Below are positions 16,870 through 28,650 of a stretch of DNA of 64,000 nt, piece by piece. Under the pieces are notes generated by a model, which ran no database searches, was not told the origin of the DNA, and saw only the letters and a program-made list of their open reading frames with translations. Origin of the DNA: Paenibacillus sp. JZ16 (GTDB lineage: Bacteria; Bacillota; Bacilli; Paenibacillales; Paenibacillaceae); NCBI RefSeq assembly GCF_015326965.1, contig NZ_CP017659.1, positions 1,302,001-1,366,000 of the forward strand, given 5' to 3'. The number at the start of each line of letters is the position of its first letter. The stretch's first letter is position 1. A program made the translations under genes and the position numbers.

Positions 16870-18657
16870 TCATACACGCCAAATCTGCTTGAAATCCAGC
16901 CATCCCAGATTATTGATGACAACCCCTTTATAAGAAGGATCCAAGCTTGCGTAAAATCTCGTATGAACCAAGAATGATACATGCGCTTCCTCCCGAAGCC
17001 TCTCTTCAATATGGGACAACAAACTCAAACGCTCCTCATACCACTCGCTGGCAAGCGCATCATCCACGCAATCCTTCACCCAATGATGCAGCGATGGATC
17101 CATGAACTCTTTAACCACGCTTCCCTTCTGCTCGTAATTCTCGATTAAACATACTTCTTCACCTGGAAGAACAAGGCCGTGCAAGACACAATCCATGGTG
17201 TTCATCACATCCGATTGGTGTATGGTATCCATCCTCTCCTCCCGGATGATCAATGGTATCCCGATGGAAGCGCACTGCTTCTGAACCCATTCGGCGTCTT
17301 TGATATGATTTGCGAGCGTAGCCATGGTAATGGGAGAGCCGTCATAACCCGACTGTTTCAGCAGTGACTTTGCGAGCTCGGGATCATGTCGGTCTTTACG
17401 GTAAGGCGCTTGCTCATCCATGATGAATCCTTTGGCCGGGTATAGCCGGTTGCCGCCAAGTTCGCGTATCATCTCGGCACGGTTCAGAATCAGGCTGAAT
17501 GCCCGGCGAAATTCGATGGACTGATAGGGCCCCGGCTTCTTCATATTCCACGTAATCAAAGTCGTACAGCCTTCGGAAGATTCTATGATATCCACAGCAT
17601 GCTTCTCACCTTTATGCTCGATACGCTCCGGATCTTGCAGCAGCCGCTCCCAGCTGACCTCGCAATGCTCCGCATCTTCGGGCATCATGATAATGTGGAT
17701 GTTGTCCAAATGCGGCCGTCCCTGATAATAATGGGGATTGGCACGTATGGTCAGCCGTTCATCGGTCCATTCTTCCACCTGAAAAGGGCCCGTTCCGACA
17801 GGAAGCTTCCAGAACTGTTCTTCATTAAGACTCACCAAATGTTTGGGCACGATGGACATGCAAATGGAGCTAACAAACCGGATAAAAATTCGATTCGGCT
17901 TGTTAAGAATAAAACGAACCTCCCGAGGCGATACCGCCTCTACTCGCTGCAGTTCACGCACGATCCAAGCATTTCGTTTATCCCGTCCCAGGCGTTCTAC
18001 CGTGAATTTCACGTCCTCCGCCGATAACTCTCTACCGTCATGGAACCGGATTCCTTTACGCAGGTGAAAAGTCCAGACCGTTCCATCCTCATTGCTGTTC
18101 CAATAATGCGCGATAACGGAAAGATATTGATCGTTGGCATTATCGTATATCACCAGCCGGTCAAATATCTGCTGGATCATATGAGCTTGAAAACTGTAGT
18201 AGCATTCGGCGGGATCCAACGTTTCAATCAAGCGGTACACGGGAAGCCGCAGCGAATCCCTTGCTTCCGCTTCCCCTTCTCTCATCTCCTTGCTAAAGCC
18301 AAAATGCCCGTTCATCCATTCCACGTAAGAATCGTTGGTGTGAATACCTTGACCATAGGTTCGCAGCAGTTCGAAGGCCTGCCGATATTCCCCTTTTAAC
18401 GCGAGCTGCTGCGCAGCTTCCTGAAGCAGATCAGCTTGATCGGCTAGAAAGGTAAGCTTGGAACGATTTCCTCGCCCGCGTCCTGCCTTCCACATAATCC
18501 AACCCTTCTCCTCGAGCTTGCGTATAACGAGCTTGGCATTCCGCGTTGTGCAATATAGCGTTTCGGCGATCTGCTCAAGCGTCACTTCCGTAGCCGTGTT
18601 GGCCGGAGCGTTAACAGCAAGCTTTTGGTGCAGCATGAAGAATTGTTCGTACAGCAT
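16870..18657 (-). CDS. SgrR-family transcriptional regulator with solute-binding domain
   Basis: A 595-residue protein with an N-terminal winged-helix domain (residues ~10-110, LEQIAETLYCTTRNAKLVIRK as recognition region) and a C-terminal domain homologous to the periplasmic peptide/nickel-binding proteins (SBP_bac_5), here without signal peptide. Diagnostic segments are YDNANDQYLSVIAHYWNSNEDG, HLRKGIRFHDGRELSAEDVKFT and PVGTGPFQVEEW. SgrR-type regulators sense a cytoplasmic small molecule with the binding-protein domain and control neighbouring genes. No sugar-phosphate stress gene or transporter is beside it, so its target is unknown. The ORF extends to 18819, but GGGGGGAG sits before ATG 18657, where homologues also start. 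Confidence 0.85.
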   Translation of the reverse strand: MLYEQFFMLHQKLAVNAPANTATEVTLEQIAETLYCTTRNAKLVIRKLEEKGWIMWKAGRGRGNRSKLTFLADQADLLQEAAQQLALKGEYRQAFELLRTYGQGIHTNDSYVEWMNGHFGFSKEMREGEAEARDSLRLPVYRLIETLDPAECYYSFQAHMIQQIFDRLVIYDNANDQYLSVIAHYWNSNEDGTVWTFHLRKGIRFHDGRELSAEDVKFTVERLGRDKRNAWIVRELQRVEAVSPREVRFILNKPNRIFIRFVSSICMSIVPKHLVSLNEEQFWKLPVGTGPFQVEEWTDERLTIRANPHYYQGRPHLDNIHIIMMPEDAEHCEVSWERLLQDPERIEHKGEKHAVDIIESSEGCTTLITWNMKKPGPYQSIEFRRAFSLILNRAEMIRELGGNRLYPAKGFIMDEQAPYRKDRHDPELAKSLLKQSGYDGSPITMATLANHIKDAEWVQKQCASIGIPLIIREERMDTIHQSDVMNTMDCVLHGLVLPGEEVCLIENYEQKGSVVKEFMDPSLHHWVKDCVDDALASEWYEERLSLLSHIEERLREEAHVSFLVHTRFYASLDPSYKGVVINNLGWLDFKQIWRV

Positions 18658-18848
18658 TGCAATCCGCTCCCCCCTGGTAACATCTATACGATTTATTCTA
18701 CTTGGAGATCGTTTCGAGCGCGAGTCCCTTTTCGGTAGAAAACCATTATATTCGAAAAAGAACAAAGGCATTCCATATGTCGGCCTACACAAGTTGTTAG
18801 TCATGAGTTTACACGCCATGATGGATAAGCGCGGCTTCCGTCATGTTA

Positions 18849-20132
18849 TCATTCACAGGATTGAATGATAAGCTCAACCGCCTTCTGCAGAGTCAATGCA
18901 AGCTCCTTGCCCTCGGTCATATTCTTCAATCGAACCATGCCCGCCGCCGCTTCATCTTCGCCGATTAGGATGGCATATGGAATACACTCAGCTGAAACAG
19001 AAGCTAATGTTTTCTTCAATTTACGGCGGTTGTCCGCCAATCGCGTATGAATCCCGCGATTCCGGAGTGCCGCTGCAGCCGTCAATCCTTCGGGTATGGT
19101 TTCTCCTATCGGGATAATCATAACGAGCGGCTTGTTTGTTTCAATCGGACGGTTTCGGATCATCTCCATGATGGATTCCATGCCGAACGAAAGACCCACC
19201 GTAGGATAAAGAGTGTCCTCGCGTCCAACGAGCTGCCCGATAATCGCGTCATACCTGCCGCCTCCACCCAAGCTTGAACGAAAGCCCTGAGATGCGTCAA
19301 AGATTTCATAAACGGTTCCTGTGTAGAAGGACAATCCTCGGGAAAGAAACGGATCAAATACGCAGATGTCTTGCAGCCCGACGCGCTGCAGCATATTTTG
19401 CAGGATCCGGACTTCTCGTGCTCCGCGCTCGTTGTCCAGGTTGTATTCGCTTGTTATTTGCGTTAATGTCGGCTCCTTGAGATCAACAAAATCAAGAATT
19501 TGACGACAAATCTCCGATGCGAGCTCCTTACCCGCAAGCTCTTGTCGAACACCCTCCTTACCCATCTTGTCGAGCTTATCCAGCGTCAGCATGACGGATG
19601 GTTTCATCTCTTCCGGTACGCCCAAAGCTCCAAGAATTTCACCAAGGAAGCTTCGGTTGTTCCACCGGAGCATGATCGGGATTTCAAGTCTCCGAAACAC
19701 TTCGGCTGCAAGCTGCATTAGCTCAACCTCCGCTTCCGGTCCCGAGATCCCCACCACATCAACGTCGCACTGCAGAAACTCCCGCAATCTTCCCCGTTTG
19801 ACGGGACCATCGCGGAATACCTTCCCCATCTCATAACGTTTGAAGGGCTGGCTGATGGCGGGATTCAGCGCGATTACCTTGGCGAATGGAATCGTCAAGT
19901 CGTACCGGAGGCCCAGACGTCGCGTTCCCTGATCTGTCAGCTGGTACATTTCCTTCAGAATTTCTTCCCCTCCTGCGTATTTGGAAGACAATAACTCGGA
20001 TTCATTCAGAATGGTTGTCTCCATTTCAGCATAGTCATAACATTCAAACACTTCACGCAGCGTCGATTGCACCTTTCTTCGGATCGCCTGTTCTTGGCCA
20101 AAATAATCATACGTTCCTTTTACGTTCTGCAT
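18849..20132 (-). CDS. hisS: Histidine--tRNA ligase (second-type HisRS)
   Basis: A 427-residue class II synthetase. Seen: motif 2 region KRYEMGKVFRDGPVKRGRLREF, the histidine-specific signatures RGLSFYTGTVYE (HisA motif 1) and GGGGRYD (motif 2), a motif 3 Arg in VGLSFGMES, and a C-terminal anticodon-binding domain (VMIIPIGE ... IHTRLADNRRKLKKTL). The full binding domain and intact signatures argue against HisZ, the regulatory paralogue, which lacks the anticodon domain. It charges tRNA-His. The start at 20132 is chosen because AAAGG lies nine bases upstream; ATG 20141 directly abuts that site. Upstream lie a strong promoter, a leader peptide with three His codons and an intrinsic terminator (separate entries), so expression should respond to histidine supply. 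A main hisS probably exists elsewhere; this copy may be an inducible backup. Confidence 0.85.
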   Translation of the reverse strand: MQNVKGTYDYFGQEQAIRRKVQSTLREVFECYDYAEMETTILNESELLSSKYAGGEEILKEMYQLTDQGTRRLGLRYDLTIPFAKVIALNPAISQPFKRYEMGKVFRDGPVKRGRLREFLQCDVDVVGISGPEAEVELMQLAAEVFRRLEIPIMLRWNNRSFLGEILGALGVPEEMKPSVMLTLDKLDKMGKEGVRQELAGKELASEICRQILDFVDLKEPTLTQITSEYNLDNERGAREVRILQNMLQRVGLQDICVFDPFLSRGLSFYTGTVYEIFDASQGFRSSLGGGGRYDAIIGQLVGREDTLYPTVGLSFGMESIMEMIRNRPIETNKPLVMIIPIGETIPEGLTAAAALRNRGIHTRLADNRRKLKKTLASVSAECIPYAILIGEDEAAAGMVRLKNMTEGKELALTLQKAVELIIQSCE

Positions 20133-20162
20133 CGTAATCATCCTTTCGTTCTAAATAAAAAT

Positions 20163-20195
20163 AAAAAACGCGCCGGACCTCATGGTCCCGCGCGC
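20163..20195 (-). terminator. Attenuator terminator upstream of hisS
   Basis: On the minus strand CGCGCGGGACC pairs with GGTCCGGCGCG around atga (one mismatch), followed by T6 and a T-rich tract. It lies 31 bp before hisS, between promoter and gene, and so can only act as an attenuator. Confidence 0.85.
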
Positions 20196-20206
20196 TGAAT
20201 ATGCGG

Positions 20207-20267
20207 CAGGGAGGCCAACGCGAACAGCGTTAGCCCACCCTGTAGAATGACAGGCGTGCTAACGCTG
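20207..20267 (-). promoter_or_regulatory. Mutually exclusive hairpins of the hisS leader
   Basis: Arm 1 CAGCGTTAGC (20267-20258, inside the last leader-peptide codons) is perfectly complementary to arm 2 GCTAACGCTG (20234-20225), with an inner CCTGT/ACAGG stem. Arm 2 together with CAGGG (20242-20238) can instead pair with arm 3 GCGTTGGCCTCCCTG (20221-20207). The two structures exclude each other, as in ribosome-controlled attenuators. The stretch AGGGTGGG at 20241-20234 also resembles the T-box core with the base expected for tRNA-His, but there is no room for a T-box stem I. Confidence 0.65.
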
Positions 20268-20306
20268 CTTGTGATGATGAAGTTGATTGAATTTGATGTT
20301 GATCAT
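20259..20306 (-). CDS. His-rich leader peptide (15 aa)
   Basis: ATG at 20306 follows GAAGGGGAT at 6 bases spacing and encodes MINIKFNQLHHHKQR, with three consecutive histidine codons (20279-20271) just before the stop. The stop codon lies in arm 1 of the downstream hairpin. This is the classical layout of an amino-acid leader peptide. Its Shine-Dalgarno can pair with CCCCTT near the transcript 5' end. Confidence 0.7.
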   Translation of the reverse strand: MINIKFNQLHHHKQR

Positions 20307-20347
20307 GGTATAATCCCCTTCACTGTTTAGCCAAATGATTAAGGGGA

Positions 20348-20376
20348 ATTATAGCGCAATCGTGTTATATATTCAA
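20348..20376 (-). promoter_or_regulatory. SigA promoter of the hisS leader
   Basis: TTGAAT (20376-20371) and a perfect TATAAT (20353-20348) are 17 bp apart on the minus strand, ending just after the catalase stop codon region. The transcript would begin near 20341, giving a leader of about 175 nt to the terminator. Confidence 0.8.
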
Positions 20377-28034: not shown

Positions 28035-28240
28035 TCTCTGTCCTCGGTACCTGAGAGTTTATGATCGACCGCTTCTTATGGTCCGATCTTTCCCCTTGGG
28101 TGGCTTGCGCACTCTCCAGAGCTGCGTCAGATGGCGGTTCGTTTACCTGAGAGATTACTCGTCAGCCTGGCGGGCGTAACGGTTTGCTCCTTCGGTGCCG
28201 CCAAGGTTTCACCCTTCGCGAGGCGGTCTCTCCCATCCAT
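28035..28240 (-). ncRNA. Tandem glycine riboswitch controlling gcvH
   Basis: Two consecutive glycine aptamers on the minus strand. The first starts GGGAGAGACCGCC (28237), contains ACCGAAGGAGCAAACC and TAATCTCTCAGGTAAACGAACCG; the second starts CTCTGGAGAGTGCGC and ends in AAACTCTCAGGTACCGAGGACAGAG. The CTCTCAGG motifs and the short linker are the signature of the gcvT RNA class. Glycine binding should allow read-through into gcvH. Confidence 0.93.
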
Positions 28241-28275
28241 CGTCATCCGCATATTCGGTTGGCTTATTCTCCCAC

Positions 28276-28384: not shown

Positions 28385-28440
28385 AATCACAAGAACGCAA
28401 GGAAGATGATGACAACTCAATAATTTTCACGCGGATGATG

Positions 28441-28650
28441 GTAGCGGGAGAGATTACCGACAGGATTGACAGGTAGCGCCGAAGGAGTAAGCCGTAACAC
28501 GGTGAATCTCTCAGGCAAAAGGACCTTTACCGGACGCACCTCTGGAGAGAATTCTGAATGTAGAATCACCCACGGGGAAACTCACACACGCTTGACATTA
28601 TACTTACATGACATGTGGGGTAACTCTCAGGTACAAAGGACAGAGCAGAA
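28441..28650 (+). ncRNA. Tandem glycine riboswitch controlling gcvT operon
   Basis: Two glycine aptamers in series. The first opens with GCGGGAGAGATTACCGACAG, includes GCCGAAGGAGTAAGCC and AATCTCTCAGGCAAAAGGACC; the second opens with CCTCTGGAGAGAATTC and closes with AACTCTCAGGTACAAAGGACAGAGCAG. It mirrors the one upstream of gcvH on the opposite strand; their 5' ends are about 200 bp apart. Confidence 0.95.

Follow-up and report, generated by a model that had tools for sequence, protein, structure and literature searches.

The window analysed here, a 64,000-nucleotide stretch of the genome of Paenibacillus sp. JZ16, contains a gene for an auxiliary histidyl-tRNA synthetase (HisRS), here named hisS2 (18849..20141, minus strand, 430 aa as listed), for which the second ATG, at 20132, is the probable conserved start. 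The encoded protein matched the NCBIfam model NF009085/PRK12420 with 598 bits, above the curated cut-off of 540, and carries the Pfam domains tRNA-synt_His and HGTP_anticodon. It is one of three HisRS-like genes detected in the genome (E ≤ 0.001), next to the main hisS (TIGR00442) and hisZ. An SgrR-like regulator gene (SgrR_N + SBP_bac_5, window 16870-18819, minus strand) starts about 30 nt after hisS2; it was considered as a partner of hisS2 and rejected, since such a gene was downstream at only 4 of the 40 loci examined (1.5-3 kb flank each), two of the four being the same record and the resulting three genomes all close relatives.

An earlier note on this DNA had described a promoter, a ribosome binding site, a leader peptide, alternative stems and a terminator ahead of hisS2, and all of these were found on the minus strand, as follows:

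20348..20376, minus strand: sigma-A type promoter, TTGAAT-17-TATAAT
20315..20321, minus strand: Shine-Dalgarno sequence of the leader, GAAGGGG, with the ATG 8 nt downstream
20259..20306, minus strand: leader peptide ORF, MINIKFNQLHHHKQR, ending in a stop codon
20271..20279, minus strand: His codons CAT CAT CAC, being codons -6, -5 and -4 before the stop
20250..20269, minus strand: arm 1, AGCAGCGTTAGCACGCCTGT, which starts within the Lys codon and includes the stop codon
20225..20243, minus strand: arm 2, ACAGGGTGGGCTAACGCTG, which includes the T-box-like AGGGTGGG and can partner arm 1 or arm 3
20203..20222, minus strand: arm 3, CGCGTTGGCCTCCCTGCCGC, which can partner arm 2, or arm 4 with the terminator loop and arm 5
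20180..20194, minus strand: arm 4, CGCGCGGGACC, and the terminator loop ATGA
20163..20179, minus strand: arm 5, GGTCCGGCGCG, and the U-run T6

The intrinsic terminator thus consists of a hairpin followed by T6, running from 20194 to 20163. A 170-nt segment beginning shortly ahead of the leader and reaching hisS2 folded better than all of 200 dinucleotide shuffles (z -4.93). With lenient patterns, a start codon and a Shine-Dalgarno-like stretch of the leader, and a -10-like hexamer upstream of it, were also recognised in 77/77 relatives.

Conservation of the leader and of its His codons, which the earlier note had named as a check, was assessed in 295 Paenibacillaceae genomes, sampled from a larger group. 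Close relatives of hisS2 (E ≤ 1e-120) were present in 81 of these genomes, spanning 9 of the 19 sampled genera. A strict pattern detected the leader upstream of hisS2 in 77/81, and three leaders at other spacing (HHHHRR, LYHFHRR and HHHHRR) brought this to 80/81; at the remaining locus (G279, L088) no leader was read, and the covariance-model match described below is found upstream, at a distance of 746 nt from the hisS2 match. Many of the genomes are close kin, the 77 leaders representing 48 distinct tails when the last ten residues are compared. Codon -6 was CAT in 66/77, codon -5 CAT in 63/77 and codon -4 CAC in 57/77 leaders, while a His residue was found at these positions in 66, 65 and 57 leaders, respectively, being otherwise replaced by Tyr or Phe and once by Arg (leaders with Tyr or Phe include L023, L026-L029, L031, L035, L038, L089, L094, L108 and L112). 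Over the last eight codons, 48 of the 77 leaders contain three His codons, 22 contain two, four contain one and three contain four, and longer His/Tyr runs such as HYYH and HHYY arose via 3-nt insertions, which preserved the frame. Residues QL ahead of the His run and KQR behind it are conserved, and the third base of codon -4 is C in 77/77 leaders. The idea that the leader senses queuosine (N, H and Y codons) was dropped because Phe codons are present too. The predicted ORF is short and carries tandem codons of the presumed regulating amino acid, as expected of a leader-peptide attenuator, and its conservation lends good support to the earlier proposal of leader-peptide attenuation by His codons. 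We consider it highly probable that the element is a translated-leader attenuator keyed to His codons.

The five arms form a chain in the leader RNA, in which arm 1 can pair with arm 2 (1:2), arm 2 with arm 3 (2:3), arm 3 with arm 4 and the terminator loop (3:4 plus loop), and arm 4 with arm 5 (4:5), and both computation and comparison give mutually exclusive folds, one of them an intrinsic terminator. We compared these pairings in 79 distinct aligned rows, obtained from the loci of 75 of the 81 genomes plus L014, L016, L020 and L053. The core pairs of 1:2 were kept in 78-79 rows, those of 2:3 in 60-79, those between arm 3 and the loop in 77-79, and those of 4:5 in 78-79 with the exception of one position (38/79); five of the six 3:4 pairs were kept in 79/79 rows and the sixth in 55/79, and pairs between arms 3 and 5 (3:5) were kept in 41-79 rows. 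The earlier note had found a gap in the switch, as the left arm of the terminator did not clearly overlap arm 3; this gap is now largely closed, since arm 3 pairs with both that left arm and the terminator loop.

A home-made tree-null covariation test over all column pairs returned none at E ≤ 0.5, many columns never varying; since the sequences are very conserved, we subsequently counted same-branch changes and changes in the pairs of the named structures. By same-branch compensatory changes the best pair was the arm 3-loop pair at columns 85-117, which had 3 of them, against an expectation of 0.21 co-changes, and was paired in 79/79 rows (TA 63, TG 10, CG 6). A further seven column pairs equalled it with 3 events, being paired in only 41-80% of rows and having higher expectations. 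The neighbouring pair 86-116 was retained in 77/79 rows. By eye, the arm 3/loop variants include CCUC/GAGG, CCUA/UAGG, CCCA/UGGG, CCCU/AGGG, CCCC/GGGG and CCCG/UGGG, joined in the wider set by CCUU/AAGG and, with the register shifted by one base, CCCA/UGGG and CCUG/CGGG, with the last pair missing in L041 and L127 and only two or three arm 3-loop pairs in several of the loci preceding NUDIX hydrolase genes (see below). In a 47-row alignment, two-sided changes were counted at 8 pairs and in 26 cells for the fold combining 1:2 with 3:(4, loop, 5), a level reached in 0/500 shuffles (mean 3.3 pairs and 7.7 cells, kinship ignored), with four of the eight pairs in 1:2 and four in the helices of arm 3. 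There was little covariation in the fold combining 2:3 with 4:5, where 2 pairs and 3 cells had changed on both sides, levels reached by 29/500 and 2/500 shuffles, respectively, and by 77/500 for the covariation score (kinship again ignored). Covariation in the stems, another check named earlier, was found for 1:2 and the arm 3 helices, hardly for 2:3 with 4:5, and for no pair at E ≤ 0.5 in the tree-null test.

We propose that the hisS2 leader is a ribosome-mediated transcription attenuator which senses the charging of tRNA-His and controls the auxiliary HisRS, with a probability of roughly 0.7. Sequence and comparison show the leader with its His codons, and also the alternative pairings; His as the signal, the footprint of the ribosome and the identity of the terminating fold are inferred. 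The leader would be translated during its transcription, and upon shortage of charged tRNA-His the ribosome would be arrested immediately before arm 1, on the first of the His codons, and arm 1 would stay free. Free arm 1 would allow 1:2 to form, arm 3 would remain unpaired and could then engage the left arm and loop of the terminator, and transcription would continue into hisS2. When charged tRNA-His is plentiful, the ribosome would reach the stop codon within arm 1 and mask this arm, so that 2:3 would form, followed by the local 4:5 hairpin with its U-run, and transcription would stop. An absence of translation altogether would spare arm 1 too, like the stall at the first His codon. This polarity would be the reverse of that of the trp attenuator; it is uncertain, and we hold it at only slightly better than even odds. 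In the trp layout, arm 1 itself contains the regulatory codons and the stop codon follows it, ahead of arm 2; here the His codons precede arm 1, which holds the stop codon. Tandem His codons and ribosome-controlled alternative folds are also features of the enterobacterial his operon leader (RF00514), in which stalling masks the first arm, whereas a stall in the hisS2 leader seems to spare arm 1; an Rfam search with the RF00514 covariance model gave no match at the hisS2 leader.

The folding computed for different ribosome positions is consistent with such a switch and places it on a narrow edge. With a 12-nt footprint and the A-site at the stop codon, the terminator 4:5 formed in 79/79 rows, while with the A-site at codon -6 the alternative fold was obtained in 29/79, including this window, where the probability of 4:5 was 0.06 at this first His codon versus 1.00 at the stop. 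With the A-site at -5 only 8/79 rows switched (probability of 4:5 in this window 0.96), and at -4 none did (0/79). A 15-nt footprint shifted the switch point to -7 (29/79), with 8/79 switching at -6 and a 4:5 probability of 0.96 in this window. The modelled boundary between ON and OFF would thus lie at the first His codon or next to it, and the switch point is razor-thin: in this window, the computed outcome of a stall at the second or third His codon is the terminator. For a transcript ending before arm 5, 3:4 had a probability above 0.5 in 67/79 rows with the A-site at -6 versus 36/79 at the stop. The terminator is favoured at equilibrium in 50/79 rows even with arm 1 free, and the genomes concerned would need kinetic trapping. 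Furthermore, the helix at the base of 3:5 (CGCG with CGCG) abuts the U-run, and the supposed antiterminator fold might therefore terminate too. Reversed polarity does not account for the second and third His codons, and codon conservation hardly favours the first, since a His is barely more constant at -7 or -6 (75/77 leaders) than at -5 or -4 (72/77).

Similar arrangements were found outside the Paenibacillaceae, where there were 25 hisS2-type places (E ≤ 1e-100), 24 of which were examined (all except G652). A His-rich leader preceded 21 of the 24 (L053, L056-L073, L176 and L177), with non-contiguous His codons in L056, and no such leader was found at the other three (L074-L076), nor in the stretch inspected at a hisS2 fragment in G539. 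A second form, with a different sequence and a similar layout, lies before hisS2 in another family of Bacilli (16 loci, 13 distinct), and by eye has the same chain of arms as the Paenibacillaceae leader. Before arm 5 is transcribed, the probability of 3:4 in this form was 0.99 for a ribosome holding the first His codon in its A-site versus 0.72 (12-nt footprint) or 0.34 (15-nt footprint) for one at the stop, and in the full-length RNA 4:5 was still favoured (0.78-0.81 vs 1.00). A third form (L056 and L073) folds with 1:2 and a terminator.

The same attenuator might alternatively act with the classical trp polarity, with a stalled ribosome masking arm 1, 2:3 serving as antiterminator, the long 3:(4,5) hairpin as terminator, and fast release at the stop codon permitting 1:2, an arrangement we judge unlikely. 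It would fit the position of the 3:5 base pairs, which abut the U-run and are mostly kept, the computed masking of arm 1 by stalls at the second and third His codons, and the His retained at -5 or -4 in 72/77 leaders. However, once arm 1 is masked the probability of 4:5 exceeds 0.5 in 79/79 rows, and as 2:3 leaves the 4:5 hairpin and T6 free, starvation would lead to termination; moreover, the stop codon being part of arm 1, a ribosome that has reached it would mask this arm too, and the second form has no counterpart of the 3:5 base pairing that is visible by eye.

Less probable still is that the leader responds to something other than His charging, such as translation that slows down generally, or arrest by the nascent peptide of the kind known from antibiotic-inducible leaders. 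The replacement of His by Tyr and Phe at several positions, the conserved QL and KQR around the run and the invariant C ending codon -4 are all compatible with this, although KQR overlaps arm 1 and can be accounted for by RNA pairing. A His is nevertheless retained at -7, -6 or -5 in 76/77 leaders, and the second form keeps tandem His codons amid different flanking residues, both of which favour His charging as the signal.

The earlier note also entertained a hybrid or ancestral T-box system, a suggestion based on the similarity of AGGGTGGG to the T-box core. A T-box, or such a hybrid, would read the acceptor end of tRNA-His via this word; TGGG would fit the discriminator C73 of tRNA-His. This reading fails on several grounds and is very improbable. 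The Rfam search at the hisS2 leader site gave no match to the T-box (RF00230), no leader-peptide family or any other family reached its threshold, and a relaxed threshold added only three matches (ncr1175, ncS037 and snoR9), all far under their gathering scores. The same genome has 33 T-box matches elsewhere (E ≤ 0.001), of which 15 exceed the family cut-off, and one is upstream of the main hisS (76.4 bits, E 2.5e-16, under the Rfam cut-off of 93), ending about 240 nt ahead of the aligned part of the gene. The T-box core AGGGUGGN is invariant, whereas the T of AGGGTGGG varies freely in the hisS2 leaders (A 29, T 24, C 17 and G 9 in the 79 rows), and AGGGTGGG belongs to arm 2. The leader is, as noted earlier, too short to accommodate a T-box stem I. 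Finally, that the ORF is there by chance, ahead of a terminator that acts constitutively or of promoter-proximal RNA, and that nothing is regulated, is equally improbable given its conservation in 81 genomes of 9/19 sampled genera, with changes that preserve the frame and alternative pairings maintained by compensatory change.

The kind of system is already known, as Naville and Gautheret (2010, PMC2965389) predicted a histidine leader peptide upstream of both hisS* and hisZ in bacilli. In that paper's account, as here, the paralogue stands beside a T-box-controlled hisS and has a short ORF with a His run and a predicted terminator (the T-box match at our main hisS, E 2.5e-16, being below the Rfam cut-off), a likeness of layout. 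The earlier remark that leader-peptide attenuation of a synthetase gene is unusual in Bacillota is fair in general, yet the prediction of such a leader for a hisS paralogue of bacilli was already in print. The main text of PMC2965389 makes no mention of Paenibacillus or Brevibacillus, and its section on this leader argues by clustering of UTRs without an arm-by-arm mechanism. Ashniev et al. (2022, PMC9413887) described further attenuators with His leaders at his operons of the Bacillus cereus group, Peptostreptococcaceae with Lutispora, and Erysipelotrichales; these share three to five consecutive His codons and alternative hairpins with the hisS2 leader, but control biosynthesis operons, with hisS absent from the main text. 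Table 2 of PMC9413887 places the his operons of Paenibacillus under the HisR repressor, and its Paenibacillus passages, as far as consulted, concern HisR. Our searches of the open-access literature found no report combining Paenibacillus, leader peptide and attenuation, and no description of the Paenibacillaceae His leader, the arm 3-loop pairing or the copies before NUDIX genes. What the present analysis adds is a likely mechanism and the spread of the hisS2 His-leader attenuator.

This spread was investigated with a covariance model built from 47 sequences, 43 of which came from the 81 genomes with hisS2. In the genome of strain JZ16 the model found no further copy of the motif at E ≤ 1 besides the hisS2 leader; two antisense matches, both weak (E 0.16 and 0.31), overlap the site of this leader. 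Within the family the motif was detected (E ≤ 0.001) in 109 of the 295 genomes, comprising all 81 with hisS2 and 28 more, some weakly. Besides one match per hisS2 genome there were 46 matches, six being weak antisense echoes and 40 representing other loci, whose downstream ORFs were classed by eye. Fourteen of these 40 precede one type of NUDIX hydrolase gene (L144-L147, L150-L154, L156-L159 and L161; the L152 protein was scanned and matched PF00293, and the ORF of L147 is short), and their leaders end in HHH and three residues in 12 cases, and in HYH or HCH and three residues in the other two; the weak match L170 has a NUDIX-like ORF further downstream. At two loci (L134:398-524 and L142:439-562) the motif precedes a protein of 123-137 aa, that of L134 having no Pfam or NCBIfam match, and at seven loci (L131, L132, L135, L136, L139, L140 and, weakly, L169) it precedes broken or divergent hisS2-like ORFs. 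Three loci with YYHF leaders (L138, L141 and L143) are followed by ORFs of 261-283 aa, which may be decayed copies of hisS2; the start of the L138 ORF is faintly hisS2-like, and the L138 and L143 ORFs had no Pfam match when scanned. In L160 an arylamine N-acetyltransferase-like ORF (PF00797) follows the motif at a distance of 154 nt, and the remaining 12 loci were weak or without class (L133, L137, L148, L149, L155 and L162-L168).

Taken together with the reversed polarity, the occurrence of the module before unrelated genes (backup HisRS, NUDIX hydrolase and small protein) allows the tentative suggestion, which we hold at less than even odds, of a dispersed stress regulon in Paenibacillaceae that responds to the charging of tRNA-His. 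Through the RNA switch, whose wiring looks unusual, the cell can probably detect when charged histidine tRNA runs short. Ribosome-mediated attenuation has reportedly been described by Vecchione and Sello in 2010 for the gene of the auxiliary, antibiotic-resistant TrpRS1 of Streptomyces coelicolor, likewise a spare synthetase, with Trp rather than His. With a T-box match at the main hisS and none at hisS2, our data suggest that T-box and leader peptide divide the labour between two HisRS genes of one cell. If hisS2 is induced upon loss of His-tRNA charging, this would suggest a backup enzyme that steps in upon failure or inhibition of the main HisRS. In a review on synthetase duplicates (PMC9437257), as far as consulted, no auxiliary function is given for HisRS. 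The roughly one hundred aligned examples are a resource for testing attenuator logic, and if the proposed polarity is true, the rules for how a leader ribosome steers termination would be wider.

A single intergenic region elsewhere in the window contains glycine riboswitch aptamers on both strands (28125-28246, minus; 28435-28536 and 28540-28645, plus). The two plus-strand aptamers form a tandem pair before glycine-cleavage genes (function assigned by eye), and the third is oppositely oriented.
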